Positions 17,629 to 26,198 of a DNA stretch of 64,000 nucleotides are shown in pieces; position 1 is the first letter of the stretch; each line of letters starts with the position of its first letter. A program made the position numbers and the translations under genes. Origin of the DNA: Pseudaquabacterium pictum (GTDB lineage: Bacteria > Pseudomonadota > Gammaproteobacteria > Burkholderiales > Burkholderiaceae_C); assembly GCF_005403045.1 (NCBI RefSeq), contig NZ_BJCL01000016.1, positions 1 through 64,000 of the forward strand, read 5' to 3'. Under the pieces are notes generated by a model. The model was not told the origin of the DNA, ran no database searches, and saw only the letters and a program-made list of their open reading frames with translations.

Positions 17629-19109
17629 TGGCACTCGTCCTCGACCACGATCGCGCTGGCGGCTACTGGGGCGCCGTTTACGTCTTCACGGCCATCAAGG
17701 GCCTGCAGGTCGTCATCGACGGCCCGGTGGGCTGCGAGAACCTGCCGGTCACCAGCGTGCTGCACTACACCGATGCGCTGCCGCCGCATGAACTGCCCAT
17801 CGTCGTGACCGGCCTGGCCGAGGAGCAGCTGGGCCGCGAAGGCACCGAAGGCGCGATGAAGCGTGCCCACGCCGTGCTCGACCCCGACCTGCCCAGCGTG
17901 GTGGTCACCGGCAGCATCGCCGAGATGATCGGCGGCGGCGTCACACCCGAGGGCACGGCGCTGCAGCGCTTCCTGCCGCGCACCATCGACGAAGACCAGT
18001 GGCAGTGCGCCAACCGCGCGATGTTCTGGCTGTGGGCCCAGTACGGCCTGCGCCACATCCCGGCGCGCAAGCCGATGGCCGAACGGCCGGCGGGCAGCAA
18101 GCCGCGCGTCAACATCATCGGCCCCAGCTACGGCAGCTTCAATCTGCCGAGCGATCTGCACGAGATCCGCCGCCTGGTCGAAGGCATCGGCGCCGAGATC
18201 AACATGGTGTTCCCGCTCGGCAGCCACCTGGCCGATGTGCAGAAGCTGGCCGATGCCGACGCCAACATCAACCTCTACCGCGAGTACGGCACCATGCTGT
18301 GCGAGGCGCTGGAGCGGCCATGGCTGCAGGCCCCCATCGGCCTGCACAGCACCACCAAGTTCCTGCGCAGCCTGGGTGCCTTGCTGGGCCTGGACCCGGA
18401 GCCCTTCATCGAGCGCGAGAAGCACACCACGGTCAAGCCGGTGTGGGACCTGTGGCGCTCGGTCACGCAGGATTTCTTCGGCACCGCCAGCTTCGCGGTG
18501 GTGGCCGGCGAGACCTACACCCGCGGCCTGCGCCACTACCTGGAAGACGAGCTGGGCCTGCCCTGCCAGTTCGCCGTGCCGCGCATCCCCGGCGCCAAGA
18601 CCGACAACGCCGCCATCCGGCAGATGACGCACGAGAAGCCGCCGCTGGTGATGTTCGGAAGCTACAACGAGCGCATGTACCTGGCCGAAGCCGGCGGTGG
18701 CCATGGCCCACGGCCGAGCTACATCCCGGCCTCGTTCCCCGGCGCCATCATCCGCCGCGCCACCGGCACGCCGTTCATGGGTTATGCCGGCGCTACCTAC
18801 ATCCTGCAGGAGTACTGCAACGCGCTGTTCGATGCGCTGTTCCATGTGCTGCCGCTGGGCACCGACCTGGACCGCGCGCCGGCCACGCCGTCGCGGCTGG
18901 ACGAGGCCACCACCAGCCCCTGGGACGACGACGCACAACAGCTGCTGAACGATCTGGTCAGCGCCCAGCCGGTGCTGGTGCAGATCTCGGCGGCCAAGCG
19001 CCTGCGCGACCGTGCCGAGGCCGATGCGCGCCAGGCCGGCGAGGCCCGCATCACGGCCGACCGCGTGGCCCGTGCCCGCGCCGCCCTCACCACCGGAGCG
19101 CCGGCATGA
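17628..19109 (+). CDS. bchZ: Chlorophyllide a reductase subunit Z
   Basis: BchZ is the substrate-binding partner of BchY in COR. The 493-residue protein begins [20 protein letters not shown] and contains [18 protein letters not shown], with the cluster-region cysteine, and [15 protein letters not shown]. The start ATG overlaps the bchY stop. The open frame extends further upstream but only within bchY. The end overlaps by 4 bp a short ORF leading into the puf genes. Confidence 0.95.
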
Positions 19110-19276
19110 CGGCGCGCCGCAACCTTGTTCTGGCACACGGCAACGTGGGCCGGGCCAACCCAACCGCGCGGGCACAGCGCGGTAAAGGTGGCCTTGCGCG
19201 CACCGGCCTCGCGGCCGATGCGGGCCGGGCTGTCGACGGCGGCCGAAAGGCCAATCTAGGCCGCGAGGCCCATTGA
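19106..19276 (+). CDS. Short ORF between bchZ and pufB, doubtful
   Basis: A 56-codon ORF begins with an ATGA overlap on the bchZ stop and ends 15 bp before the pufB ATG. The predicted peptide is basic and Gly/Ala-rich with no hydrophobic segment, so it is not PufQ. It may be a leader peptide, an RNA segment controlling puf expression, or chance. The overlap with bchZ is the only positive sign of coding. Confidence 0.22.
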
Positions 19277-19291
19277 AAAAGGAAAGACGTC

Positions 19292-19441
19292 ATGGCAAAC
19301 GACCGACAAGGCTCGCTGTCCGGGTTGACCGAACAGGAAGCGCGGGAGTTTCACGGCATGTTCGTGAGCAGCTTCATCGGCTTCACCGTGATCGCGATCG
19401 TCGCGCACGTCCTGGTCTGGAACTGGCGCTCGTGGCTGTAA
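19292..19441 (+). CDS. pufB: Light-harvesting 1 beta chain
   Basis: This is the 49-residue LH1 beta polypeptide of the core antenna. It has the [16 protein letters not shown]-terminus, one membrane helix and the bacteriochlorophyll-binding histidine in [14 protein letters not shown]. The spacing of 18 residues between its two histidines is standard. A GGAAAG ribosome site precedes it. It is the first gene of the puf segment. Confidence 0.96.
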
Positions 19442-19484
19442 GCCGCTAGCACCTGTTTCGAACCCGCTCAACAAGGAGCAAACC

Positions 19485-19706
19485 ATGGCAGCTTCAACAC
19501 TCAAGACCGATGTGCAACACCCTGGCGGCGGCGCGCTGTCACCGGTGGTGTTTCTCGTCGGATTTGCCGTGTTTCTGGTGATCGCCCTCATCGCCCAGAT
19601 GCTGACCATGCGCTGGCGGACCTGGTTGCCAGGCGCCGAGGGTGAGGGGTCGTTGATCGCAGGCGTCAAGTCGGCGGTCTACACCTTCATGTCCTACATC
19701 CCTTAA
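19485..19706 (+). CDS. LH1 beta-like single-helix protein lacking pigment histidines
   Basis: This 73-residue protein lies between pufB and pufA. It has one membrane helix (~20-38), and its end aligns with that of Puf[15 protein letters not shown] against [14 protein letters not shown]. The bacteriochlorophyll-ligand His is replaced by Gln38, and no His occupies the second position 18 residues earlier (Pro20 there). Trp and Arg of the WRxW end are kept. A C-terminal extension [25 protein letters not shown], not seen in the beta chain here, could form an amphipathic helix. It has its own strong Shine-Dalgarno (AAGGAGC). It probably does not bind pigment as beta does; a ring-spacer or quinone-gate role like PufX or protein W is inference. 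Confidence 0.8.
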
Positions 19707-19717
19707 AGGAGTCTTCC

Positions 19718-19903
19718 ATGTGGAGATTGTGGTTGTTGTTTGATCCCCGCCGGATCCTGGTCGCGATGGGCACGTTCCTGTTCGGCCTCGCCATCCTGAT
19801 TCACTTCATCCTGCTCAGCACTGACAAGTTCAACTGGCTCGATGGCGCGAAGAAGACCAAGACGGCTGCCGTGCAGATGGAAGTGCTGCCGCCCCAGGCC
19901 TGA
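19718..19903 (+). CDS. pufA: Light-harvesting 1 alpha chain
   Basis: This is the 61-residue LH1 alpha polypeptide. It begins [18 protein letters not shown] and has the pigment-ligand histidine in [17 protein letters not shown], with Trp 11 residues further on as usual. The short C-terminal tail is Lys/Val-rich. It is preceded by AAAGGAG and followed by the stem-loop that separates the antenna genes from pufL. Confidence 0.95.
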
Positions 19904-19934
19904 CGGCCCGGCTGCAGTGCATCCATGCACACCC

Positions 19935-19968
19935 GCAGTCAGCGGGGCCTGCGGGCCCTGTTGACTGC
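19935..19968 (+). promoter_or_regulatory. pufA-pufL intercistronic stem-loop
   Basis: A 15-bp stem (19935-19949 with 19954-19968, including two or three G-U pairs) closes on a TGCG loop. A smaller hairpin GTGCA-TCCA-TGCAC lies just upstream at 19918-19931. In other purple bacteria, structures here block 3' decay and keep the pufBA message in excess over pufLM; the same role is inferred here. Confidence 0.75.
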
Positions 19969-20038
19969 CAAGAATTCGCAAGACCGGCTGCCTGCCGCCC
20001 GACCTGGGTGACAGGGGCCAGCAAACCGGGAGCCGGCG

Positions 20039-20863
20039 ATGGCCATGCTCAGCTTTGAAAAGAAATACCGGGTCCGCGGCGGCACCCTGCTCGGGGGCGA
20101 CCTGTTCGACTTCTGGGTCGGGCCGTTCTATGTCGGCTTCTTCGGTGTCACCGCGGCATTCTTCGCCATCCTCGGTACGCTGCTGATCATCTGGGGTGCC
20201 AGCATGGGCACCACCTGGAACATCTGGCAGATCAACATCGCCCCGCCCGACCTGAGCTACGGCCTGCGCATGGCGCCGATGGCCGAGGGCGGCCTGTGGC
20301 AGGTGATCACGATCTGCGCCACCGGGGCATTCGTCTCGTGGGCGCTGCGCGAGGTGGAGATCTGCCGCAAGCTGGGCATGGGCTTCCATGTGCCCATCGC
20401 CTTCGGCGTGGCCATCTTCGCCTACGTCACGCTGGTGATCTTCCGCCCGCTGCTGCTGGGTGCCTGGGGCCACGGCTTCCCGTACGGCATCCTGAGCCAC
20501 CTGGACTGGGTGTCGAACACCGGCTACCAGTACCTGCACTTCCACTACAACCCGGCGCACATGCTGGCCATCACGTTCTTCTTCACGAACGCGCTGGCCC
20601 TGTCGATGCACGGCGGCCTCATCCTGGCGATGACCAACCCGCAGAAGGGTGAGCCGGTCAAGACGCCGGAACACGAGAACACCTTCTTCCGCGACGCCAT
20701 CGGCTACTCCATCGGCTCGCTCGGCATCCACCGCCTGGGCCTGTTCCTGGCGCTGTCGGCAGGCTTCTGGAGCGCGGTGTGCATCATCATCAGCGGGCCC
20801 TTCTGGACCCGCGGCTGGCCCGAGTGGTGGGGCTGGTGGCTCAGCCTGCCGGTCTGGCGCTGA
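20039..20863 (+). CDS. pufL: Photosynthetic reaction centre L subunit
   Basis: The L subunit binds the special pair and accessory pigments with M. The 274-residue protein begins [17 protein letters not shown], has five membrane helices and contains the pigment and iron histidines in [12 protein letters not shown] and LSMHGGLIL. It starts after the intercistronic hairpin. The spacing to pufM is 48 bp. Confidence 0.97.
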
Positions 20864-20911: not shown

Positions 20912-21883
20912 ATGGCCGAGTACCAGAACATCTTCACCCGCGTGCAAGTGCACGGGCCGTCGTATCCCGGGGTGCCGCTCAGCTACCCGGGCGAGGAGCA
21001 GGAGCGCAAGGGCCCGCCCCTGCACATCCACCTGCTGGGGCGCATCGGCGATGCGCAGCTCGGCCCCATCTACCTTGGCTGGCTGGGCGTGGTGTCGCTG
21101 ATCTGCGGCTTCATCGCCTTCGAGATCATCGGCCTGAACATGCTGGCCCAGGTGAACTGGGACCCGATCCAGTTCGTGCGGCAGCTGTTCTGGCTGGCGC
21201 TGGAGCCGCCTGCGGCCGAGTACGGCCTGCGCATTCCACCGCTGGCCAAGGGCGGCTGGTGGCTGATCGCCGGCTTCTTCCTGACGCTGTCGATCCTGCT
21301 GTGGTGGCTGCGCATGTACCGCCGTGCCAAGGCGCTGGGCATCGGCACCCACATCCCCTGGGCCTTTGCGGCGGCGATCTGGCTGTACCTGGTGCTGGGT
21401 TTCATCCGCCCGGTGATGATGGGCAGCTGGAGTGAAGCGGTTCCGTTCGGGATCTTCCCCCACCTCGACTGGACGGCGGCCTTCTCGCTACGCTACGGCA
21501 ACCTGTTCTACAACCCGTTCCACATGCTGTCGATCGCCTTCCTCTACGGGTCGGCGCTGATCTTCGCGATGCACGGTGCCACCATCCTGGCGGTCACCCG
21601 CTTCGGCGGCGAGCGCGAGATCGAGCAGATCTACGACCGCGGCACCGCCAGCGAGCGGGCCGCCCTGTTCTGGCGCTGGACCATGGGCTTCAACGCCACG
21701 ATGGAATCCATCCACCGCTGGGCCTGGTGGTTCGCGGTGCTGACCCCGCTGACCGGCGGCATCGGCATCCTGCTCACCGGCACCGTGGTCGACAACTGGT
21801 ACCTGTGGGCCGTGGAGCACGGTGTGGCCCCGTCCTACCCGGCGGTCTACCCCACCGGCCCGGATCCCGCGCTGACCAAGTAA
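20912..21883 (+). CDS. pufM: Photosynthetic reaction centre M subunit
   Basis: The M subunit is the partner of PufL. The 323-residue protein has the start [16 protein letters not shown] and five helices. The histidine-bearing segments are [23 protein letters not shown] and [10 protein letters not shown], and the iron-ligand glutamate region is [15 protein letters not shown]. The C-terminal tail extends past the last helix, as in species that carry PufC. A GCCAGGAG Shine-Dalgarno precedes the ATG. Confidence 0.97.
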
Positions 21884-21981: not shown

Positions 21982-23112
21982 ATGAAGCGCATCCACACTG
22001 CCCTGCTGGCCGCACTGCTGGGCCCCCTGCTGCTCGCCGGCTGCGAACGCCCGCCGATGGAATCCACGCAGACCGGCTACCGCGGCACCGCCATGGGCGC
22101 CGTGGTCAACCCGCGCATTGCCGGGCCGATCGAAGCCGCCCAGACCCTGCCCGAGCCCATCGCCGCCATCCCGGTGGCGCCTGGCGCGCCGCTGGCGAAG
22201 GATTCGTACCAGAACGTGCAGGTGCTCGGCGACCTGCCGGCCACCGAGTTCACCCGCACCATGCTGGCCATCACCGCCTGGGTGGCGCCCAAGCAGGGCT
22301 GCGCCTACTGCCATGCACCGGGTGAGGCGCTGTCGTCGGACAAGCTCTACACCAAGGTGGTGGCGCGCAAGATGATCGCGATGACGCGGCACCTGAACGC
22401 CGACTGGAAGGCCCACGTCGCGCCCACCGGCGTCACCTGCTACACCTGCCACCGCGGCGAGCCGGTGCCGGCCCAGGTGTGGTTCACCGAGCCCGCGCCG
22501 CGCTCGTCGGGCGGGGCGACCACGGATTCCGGCGGACAGAACCATCCGTCGCTGCAGGCCGGACTGACCTCGCTGGGCATCGACCCGCTGACGCCCTACC
22601 TGCTGGGCAACGAGCGCATCCGCGTGGCCGGGCCCACCTCGCTGCCCACGGGCAACGTGGCCAGCATCCGCCAGACCGAGGGCACCTTCGGCCTGATGGT
22701 GCACATGAGCAAGTCGCTGGGCGTCAACTGCACCCATTGCCACAACACCCGCTCGCATGCCGAATGGGCCGAGAGCCCGCTGACCCGCACCAAGGCCTTC
22801 CACGGCATCAACATGGCGCGCGATCTCAACAACGCCTACATGGTGCCGCTCACGCCCACCTTCCCGGCCACCCGGCTGGGCGCGCTGGGCGATGTCGCCA
22901 AGGTCAGCTGCGCCACCTGCCACCAGGGCCTGAACAAGCCGCTGAAGGGCGCGCCGCTGCTGAAGGACCACCCGGCCCTGGCCGGCCCCTGGGGCACCGT
23001 CAGTGCCGCGACGGCGGCGGCCGCACCGGACAGCACCGCCGTGCCGGCCGACGCCGTGGCCAAGGTGGCGCAGGTGGTCAGCGCCACGGCCACCACACCG
23101 GCCAAGCGCTGA
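21982..23112 (+). CDS. pufC: Reaction-centre tetraheme cytochrome c subunit
   Basis: PufC passes electrons from soluble carriers to the special pair on the periplasmic side. The 376-residue precursor has a lipoprotein signal with lipobox LLAGC (Cys21). It has four CxxCH heme motifs (CAYCH, CYTCH, CTHCH, CATCH) with the expected Met-containing helices in front. The C-terminal ~45 residues are Ala/Thr-rich and low complexity, a tail beyond the usual cytochrome fold. It is the last puf gene. Confidence 0.96.
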   Translation: MKRIHTALLAALLGPLLLAGCERPPMESTQTGYRGTAMGAVVNPRIAGPIEAAQTLPEPIAAIPVAPGAPLAKDSYQNVQVLGDLPATEFTRTMLAITAWVAPKQGCAYCHAPGEALSSDKLYTKVVARKMIAMTRHLNADWKAHVAPTGVTCYTCHRGEPVPAQVWFTEPAPRSSGGATTDSGGQNHPSLQAGLTSLGIDPLTPYLLGNERIRVAGPTSLPTGNVASIRQTEGTFGLMVHMSKSLGVNCTHCHNTRSHAEWAESPLTRTKAFHGINMARDLNNAYMVPLTPTFPATRLGALGDVAKVSCATCHQGLNKPLKGAPLLKDHPALAGPWGTVSAATAAAAPDSTAVPADAVAKVAQVVSATATTPAKR

Positions 23113-25767: not shown

Positions 25768-26031
25768 CTAGGGCTTGGCGGTCGTCGCCTTTGCCACCAG
25801 CGTGGACGCATCGGCCGGGGCGGCCGCCGTCGCCACGGGCGCCGGGGTGGCCGCTGCCGTCTTCGGCATCGCTGCCGACACGGCCGCCTTGCCGCTGTAG
25901 TACGCGGGGTACCAGGCGGTGGACGTGAGGATGGCGGTGTGCACCGCCAGCGCGATCACGGTCACGCCGCCCAGGAACAGCGGCAGGCCCACGGTGGGCT
26001 TGACCACGAGCCAGATCTTGCCTTGGTTCAT
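25768..26031 (-). CDS. pucA: Light-harvesting 2 alpha chain
   Basis: This is the 87-residue LH2 alpha polypeptide. It begins [20 protein letters not shown], has the pigment histidine in [10 protein letters not shown], and carries Tyr-Tyr 13 and 14 residues later, the pair linked to 850-nm absorbing complexes. The last ~35 residues form an Ala/Pro/Thr-rich tail ([19 protein letters not shown]), longer than in most LH2 alpha chains but resembling the extended alpha of Rubrivivax. It follows pucB by 11 bp. Confidence 0.95.
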
Positions 26032-26042
26032 GTTCTATCCCT

Positions 26043-26198
26043 TCAGTGGAGCCACGGCGTATAGATGTACGCCAGCAGGTGCGCCAGAGCGGCGATGAAA
26101 CCGAAGATCCGCGTGCCCTCGATGACGTGGCGGTGCAGTTCTTCGCTTTCGGCCAAGGTGAGCCCTGTGGGCCAAACCTTGTTCGGATCAATCTCCAT
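26043..26198 (-). CDS. pucB: Light-harvesting 2 beta chain
   Basis: This is the 51-residue LH2 beta polypeptide, beginning MEIDPNKVWPTGLTLAESEE. It has both pigment histidines, in ELHRHVIEG and ALAHLLAYIYTPWLH. The start at 26198 is preceded by AAGGAGAAT. The frame is open to 26285 but the extra N-terminus is not LH-like. It is transcribed with pucA from a promoter region holding two PpsR operators. Confidence 0.95.
   Translation of the reverse strand: MEIDPNKVWPTGLTLAESEELHRHVIEGTRIFGFIAALAHLLAYIYTPWLH

Follow-up and report, generated by a model that had tools for sequence, protein, structure and literature searches.

The window analysed here, a 64,000-nucleotide stretch of the Pseudaquabacterium pictum genome, carries a row of photosynthesis genes in the order bchZ (named from its place and length), pufB, a small gene that we call X, pufA, pufL, pufM and then a pufC-type cytochrome gene, all on the + strand. 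The pufB gene (19292..19441, +; NF040862, E 1.5e-22) encodes the short form of PufB, 49 residues long with the C-terminal end ...WRSWL, and pufA (19718..19903, +; NF040861, E 4.4e-21) encodes 61 residues. Between them lies X (19485..19706, +), which has an ATG start and encodes a 73-residue, single-helix LH1 beta-like protein without the ligand histidine. Downstream come pufL (20039..20863, +) and pufM (20912..21883, +), both recognised by PF00124, and after pufM the cytochrome gene (22045-22983, +; PF02276). The source genome holds a single copy of X, and pufB is the sole other clear match of the X profile.

As the original prediction had it, this third single-helix gene has a strong ribosome site of its own: AAGGAG at 19473..19478 (+), with a Shine-Dalgarno duplex energy of -7.2 kcal/mol; pufA has -7.5 and pufB -4.9, and random 18-mers average -2.98. 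Across 106 loci the mean energies were -7.05 for X, -7.19 for pufA and -7.71 for pufB. At the window locus, the one that we folded, a 15-bp hairpin is predicted in the gap between pufA and pufL (19935..19968, +; fold of 19890-20050, z -2.86), and by analogy with Rhodobacter it is a candidate protective element for the pufB-X-pufA message. Upstream of pufB, a 56-residue ORF (19106-19276, +), whose ATGA overlaps the bchZ stop, occupies the place of pufQ and, by description, that of Rubrivivax ORF1; its end, GGRKANL, resembles an RGNGRxA string that we noticed on visual inspection in front of pufB in several further genomes and that could be a leader peptide or a DNA element. The window also has an LHC (PF00556) pair at 25909-26150 (-), close to the reaction-centre genes, on the strand opposite to them, and LH2-like by place alone, and a second PufC-type cytochrome gene of this genome lies on another contig (G000:C2:613-1566).

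The gene is not new: it is ORF2 of Rubrivivax gelatinosus, equated by position, and ORF74 of Roseateles depolymerans, equated by position and length; both occupy the same place as X, and in these respects we found no difference. The available text of PMC12817894, which cites Nagashima 1994 for the R. gelatinosus puf ORFs, states that this puf operon also has two ORFs of unknown function, with ORF2 upstream of pufA, and it compares ORF2 with PufA2, noting the missing His. The available text of PMC10037100 describes ORF74 as an ORF without known function that shares the major 1-kb message with pufA and pufB, in line with the earlier proposal that X is made in the same message as the alpha and beta polypeptides. 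By locus tag, ORF74 stands between pufB and pufA, and the record L043, from strain DSM 11813 of R. depolymerans, encodes a protein of 74 residues there. The original prediction would have fallen had X proved to be an LH1 subunit already described; X corresponds instead to a frame on record to which no function has been assigned. In the open-licence PMC literature we found no paper that calls ORF2 or X a beta relative or gives it a function, and neither a peptide nor a structure of X turned up in the literature and PDB entries searched. In the PDB, the X profile matched 40 sequences below E 0.02, all of them antenna chains by name; our searches there returned no solved chain near-identical to these betaproteobacterial antenna and L proteins.

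Among 60 relatives (source genome included), X was found in 11 of the 11 with a reaction centre, called by PF00124, and in 0 of the 49 without. In those 11 it scores at least 45 bits; one match in G055 (E=0.009, 17.9 bits, inside a 511-residue frame) was left out of the count. A wider Burkholderiales sample of 399 genomes included 47 with a reaction centre, and 36 of these have pufB-X-pufA on a single contig. One more (G087, L134) carries a divergent X on the downstream side of pufB, and its pufA sits on a different contig; five (G064, G198, G211, G285 and G315) have no X and a PufB of 76-78 residues that combines the His with an X-type extension; three from one genus (G104, G220 and G251) pair a short PufB with a divergent His-less protein encoded upstream; and in two (G181 and G332), which could not be scored, the contigs stop before the pufB-pufA region. 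Over all X loci collected (from overlapping sets), pufB, X and pufA stand in order at 126 of 129, the other three being cut by contig ends. X thus recurs between pufB and pufA in Burkholderiales, a point that the original prediction proposed to check. A scan of GTDB contigs with X gave 240 relatives. The best 80 of the 240, examined by record, include Rubrivivax gelatinosus, R. benzoatilyticus, Roseateles depolymerans and Sphaerotilus mobilis; within these 80, titles giving a class, order, family or genus point to groups that we take to be betaproteobacterial, and the remaining titles read only Pseudomonadota, proteobacterium or bacterium. A plasmid search with X gave no match.

Beyond the Burkholderiales, a Pseudomonadota sample of 397 genomes contained 35 with a reaction centre, and the X profile found matches in 19 of the 31 new ones. 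In all 15 of the non-Burkholderiales puf regions examined from these 31 (L161-L175), pufA follows pufB with no X between them, and many of the PufB proteins are extended. At L161, L162, L163 and L165 the X profile weakly matches, at 14 to 30 bits, a His-less protein encoded upstream of pufB. The X frame is not a chance ORF, and because it recurs in most of the photosynthetic relatives examined, X probably has a genuine though uncharacterised place in the photosystem or in the assembly of it.

In a PufB-like register, Gln38 of X stands at the position of the bacteriochlorophyll-ligand His of PufB, and the window protein keeps W44 (+6), R45 (+7) and W47 (+9). It has Pro at the place of the second His (-18), where 5 of 109 distinct X proteins have His, and it continues for 25 residues beyond WL. 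The alignment therefore agrees with the residues named originally: Gln for the ligand His, no second His, the W/R/W set kept and a 25-residue extension. At the ligand position the 109 distinct X proteins carry Q (81), T (9), S (8), L, E or K (3 each), G (1) or A (1), and never His; together with the profile comparisons below, this bears out the initial description of X as an LH1-beta-type protein without the ligand. Other positions are close to constant: Ala(-4) in 107 of 109, Trp(+6) and Arg(+7) each in 108, and P(+11), G(+12) and V(+23) in all 109. In antenna helices, the residue corresponding to Ala(-4) is a small one that faces the pigment or a neighbouring helix. Conservation is highest at +6 to +14 and in portions of +22 to +34, and the C-terminal segment beginning PGAEG is strongly conserved.

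AlphaFold2 predicts a helix at residues 20-46 (19542..19622, +), the predicted transmembrane helix with Gln38 at the ligand position, and a less certain one at residues 57-70; the mean pLDDT is 90 for residues 21-30 and 84 for residues 31-40. The low-confidence helix lies in the segment past WRTWL (residues 49-73; 19629..19703, +), and residues 57-72 are amphipathic, with a moment of 0.352 against a mean of 0.193 for shuffles of the same residues (sd of single shuffles 0.096). Foldseek and VIA-align searches with this model (mean pLDDT 64.4, pTM 0.34) found no match, which is uninformative because the model consists of one helix plus a low-confidence one.

The closest relative of X is PufB itself. 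The best match of the X profile is to PufB proteins that have the His and the same C-terminal extension: profile comparison gave 99.65% over 70 columns for long PufB and 97.09% for short PufB, and in each case 0 of 60 segment-shuffled controls reached the score. In the C-terminal part, 16 of 30 aligned residues are identical between the window X and the long PufB of L136. LHC is the only Pfam family that the window X matches, at E 0.3 and so below the cut-off that the window PufB and PufA pass; set against the beta branch of PF00556, X has homology with PufB along the helix and lacks the ligand His. In a tree that is unrooted, is built from few columns with bootstrap values that had not settled, and kept 48 of the 109 X and 29 of the 90 short PufB sequences, 47 of the 48 X rows form one clade (99/91), next to long PufB of genus g54; the divergent X of L134 (G087) falls outside it on a long branch. 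Given the profile comparisons and the tree, X is best described as a paralogue of the extended LH1 beta polypeptide PufB, and it probably had a single origin.

The distribution of the extension is complementary. PufB is short (47-50 residues) in all 36 genomes with pufB-X-pufA and long in the five Burkholderiales without X, and both states occur within one genus: of 12 genomes of g54, five have X with a short PufB, three have a long PufB without X and four gave no match. Judging by this pattern, X appears to have taken over the C-terminal extension from PufB, and the complementarity, clearest in g54, suggests a need for the extension on one beta-type helix or the other, be it PufB or X. The split is no universal rule, since genus g84 and several non-Burkholderiales do not fit: the three g84 genomes have a short PufB, no X and another His-less protein upstream; L161, L162 and L165 have both a long PufB and an upstream His-less protein; and in some other non-Burkholderiales with a short PufB, neither X nor an upstream His-less protein was found. 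A comparison of PufA between genomes with and without X gave differences explicable by phylogeny and was set aside.

We tentatively favour, as the likeliest of the readings considered though short of an even chance, that X is a non-pigmented accessory polypeptide of RC-LH1 that arose by a split of PufB, with its helix placed within the ring or alongside it and two or more copies in each ring. The long beta polypeptide would have had two jobs, which were divided in the Burkholderiales line, presumably in that direction: PufB would have retained the His and the cytoplasmic N-terminal motif, ending at about WRPWL, and X would have lost both of these and retained the helix and the extension. Translated from the pufB-X-pufA message (co-transcription is reported for one relative), X would pack like a beta helix in or against the ring, with Ala(-4) and Trp +6/Arg +7 kept, and its amphipathic C-terminal helix would lie on the periplasmic face if X is oriented like its beta homologues. 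There it may stabilise the ring or space it for the passage of quinone, assuming that it resides in the complex and that each ring holds more than one copy. A Shine-Dalgarno about as strong as that of pufA, inside pufB-X-pufA and, in the window, with a strong hairpin after pufA, is better suited to many copies than to one per ring and suggests that X is a many-copy protein. Co-evolution did not single out LH1: in a mirror-tree comparison (86 of 126 loci usable, 82 without duplicates; pufM distances were odd, perhaps from partial hits), the partial r was 0.305 for X with pufB and 0.348 for X with bchZ, and as these are not separated they indicate no special link between X and LH1.

The main rival to this accessory polypeptide is, in our ranking, a biogenesis factor, followed in third place by a ring opener present in a single copy. 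As a Burkholderiales counterpart of PufQ, X would use its beta-like helix to handle nascent alpha and beta polypeptides or bacteriochlorophyll, which we consider rather unlikely. Of 78 reaction-centre genomes, 12 score above the cut-off for PufQ (PF05398), and these 12 include none of the 47 Burkholderiales in the set; His-less, X-like proteins stand at the pufQ place in g84 (L129-L131) and at L161, L162, L163 and L165. Profile comparison of X with these upstream proteins gave 97.13%, with 0 of 60 shuffles as good, and that with Rhodobacteraceae-type PufQ gave 38%, its score of 23.6 exceeding the maximum of 20.05 over the 60 shuffles (0/60), although other settings gave 1.78%. This similarity to PufQ is, however, far weaker than that to beta polypeptides, and for PufQ against long PufB 21 of 60 shuffles were as good, so that those two were not distinguishable from chance. 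The upstream proteins also form a clade of their own (100/99), apart from X, and all 7 of them, read by eye, show Arg in the ligand column; HMMs of X, pufB and pufA find no X or upstream homologue in the five long-PufB Burkholderiales. An assembly role over one in the finished ring would be the better fit to the longer beta polypeptide of Rps. palustris, whose last 13 residues, according to the available text of PMC7806223, are absent from the mature complex through cleavage. As a statement of family membership, that X is simply a PufQ can be rejected: the window protein has no match to PF05398 at E up to 10, and X lies downstream of pufB. The upstream proteins are a second His-less beta-like family (with C-termini such as SVFGEAKAAANKVLPFVFMS), whose L161 member matches Pfam PufQ at E 0.021, below the cut-off; the family may link PufQ to the antenna family.

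The reading given with the original prediction, that one X per ring takes a beta place and leaves a pigment-free gap for quinone in the manner of PufX or protein W, seems to us unlikely. A beta-like helix that has Ala(-4) and lacks a ligand could occupy a beta position and terminate the bacteriochlorophyll array, and odd antenna chains present once have been solved (8k5o_4, beta-like; 8k5o_3 and 7vrj_3, alpha; one chain each), but the ribosome site suggests many copies and the same extension sits on an ordinary pigment-binding PufB in the five relatives without X. Docking on the PufC cytochrome as the sole role of X is also unlikely: one genus (L141 and L126, in G335 and G363, both 85% complete) has X and a reaction centre with no match to PF02276. 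Its position between pufB and pufA might make the X frame a translation-tuning spacer with no function as a protein, a reading rendered highly improbable by protein-level conservation over the 109 distinct sequences and by dN/dS values of about 0.40, 0.36 and 0.09 in three pairs among L005, L006 and L007, these being short genes.

With a puf protein so close to constant and still unstudied, the core photosystem of this betaproteobacterial group may contain a part that has never been modelled. The natural swap of X plus short PufB for long PufB alone, also within a genus, offers a direct way of testing what the C-terminal extension of LH1 beta is for. Taken to its furthest, the accessory-polypeptide reading would give RC-LH1 a novel subunit class in X, a beta polypeptide that relinquished pigment binding, was born when long PufB split into one half that binds pigment and one that carries the extension, and serves as a structural, probably quinone-gating ring member in most phototrophic Burkholderiales; in this full form it is possible but doubtful.

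Among known systems, X resembles the extended PufB proteins (7xxf_B of Rhodopila globiformis, 8z81_B, 9m8m_B and the long PufB of L136, L137 and L144-L146), with which it shares one helix, W(+6)R(+7)xW(+9), PG..G and a C-terminal segment beyond these; unlike them, it has neither the ligand His nor the SGLTxxEAxEFH N-terminal motif with the second His. PufQ (PF05398) resembles X in being a small single-helix puf protein with a conserved C-terminus, but its gene lies upstream of pufB and the sequence link is weak. PufX and protein W (PufW) are likened to X by role alone, through a possible place at the ring gap. The LH1 gamma-like polypeptide of Rhodopila, described in the available text of PMC9640540 as 22 residues long and present in 11 copies in the opposite orientation, is like X a non-pigmented LH1 helix, as is gamma of Blastochloris. 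Gamma, however, is a short helix that lies between beta polypeptides and has a periplasmic N-terminus, whereas X is a 73-residue relative of beta that would, by homology, be oriented as beta is.
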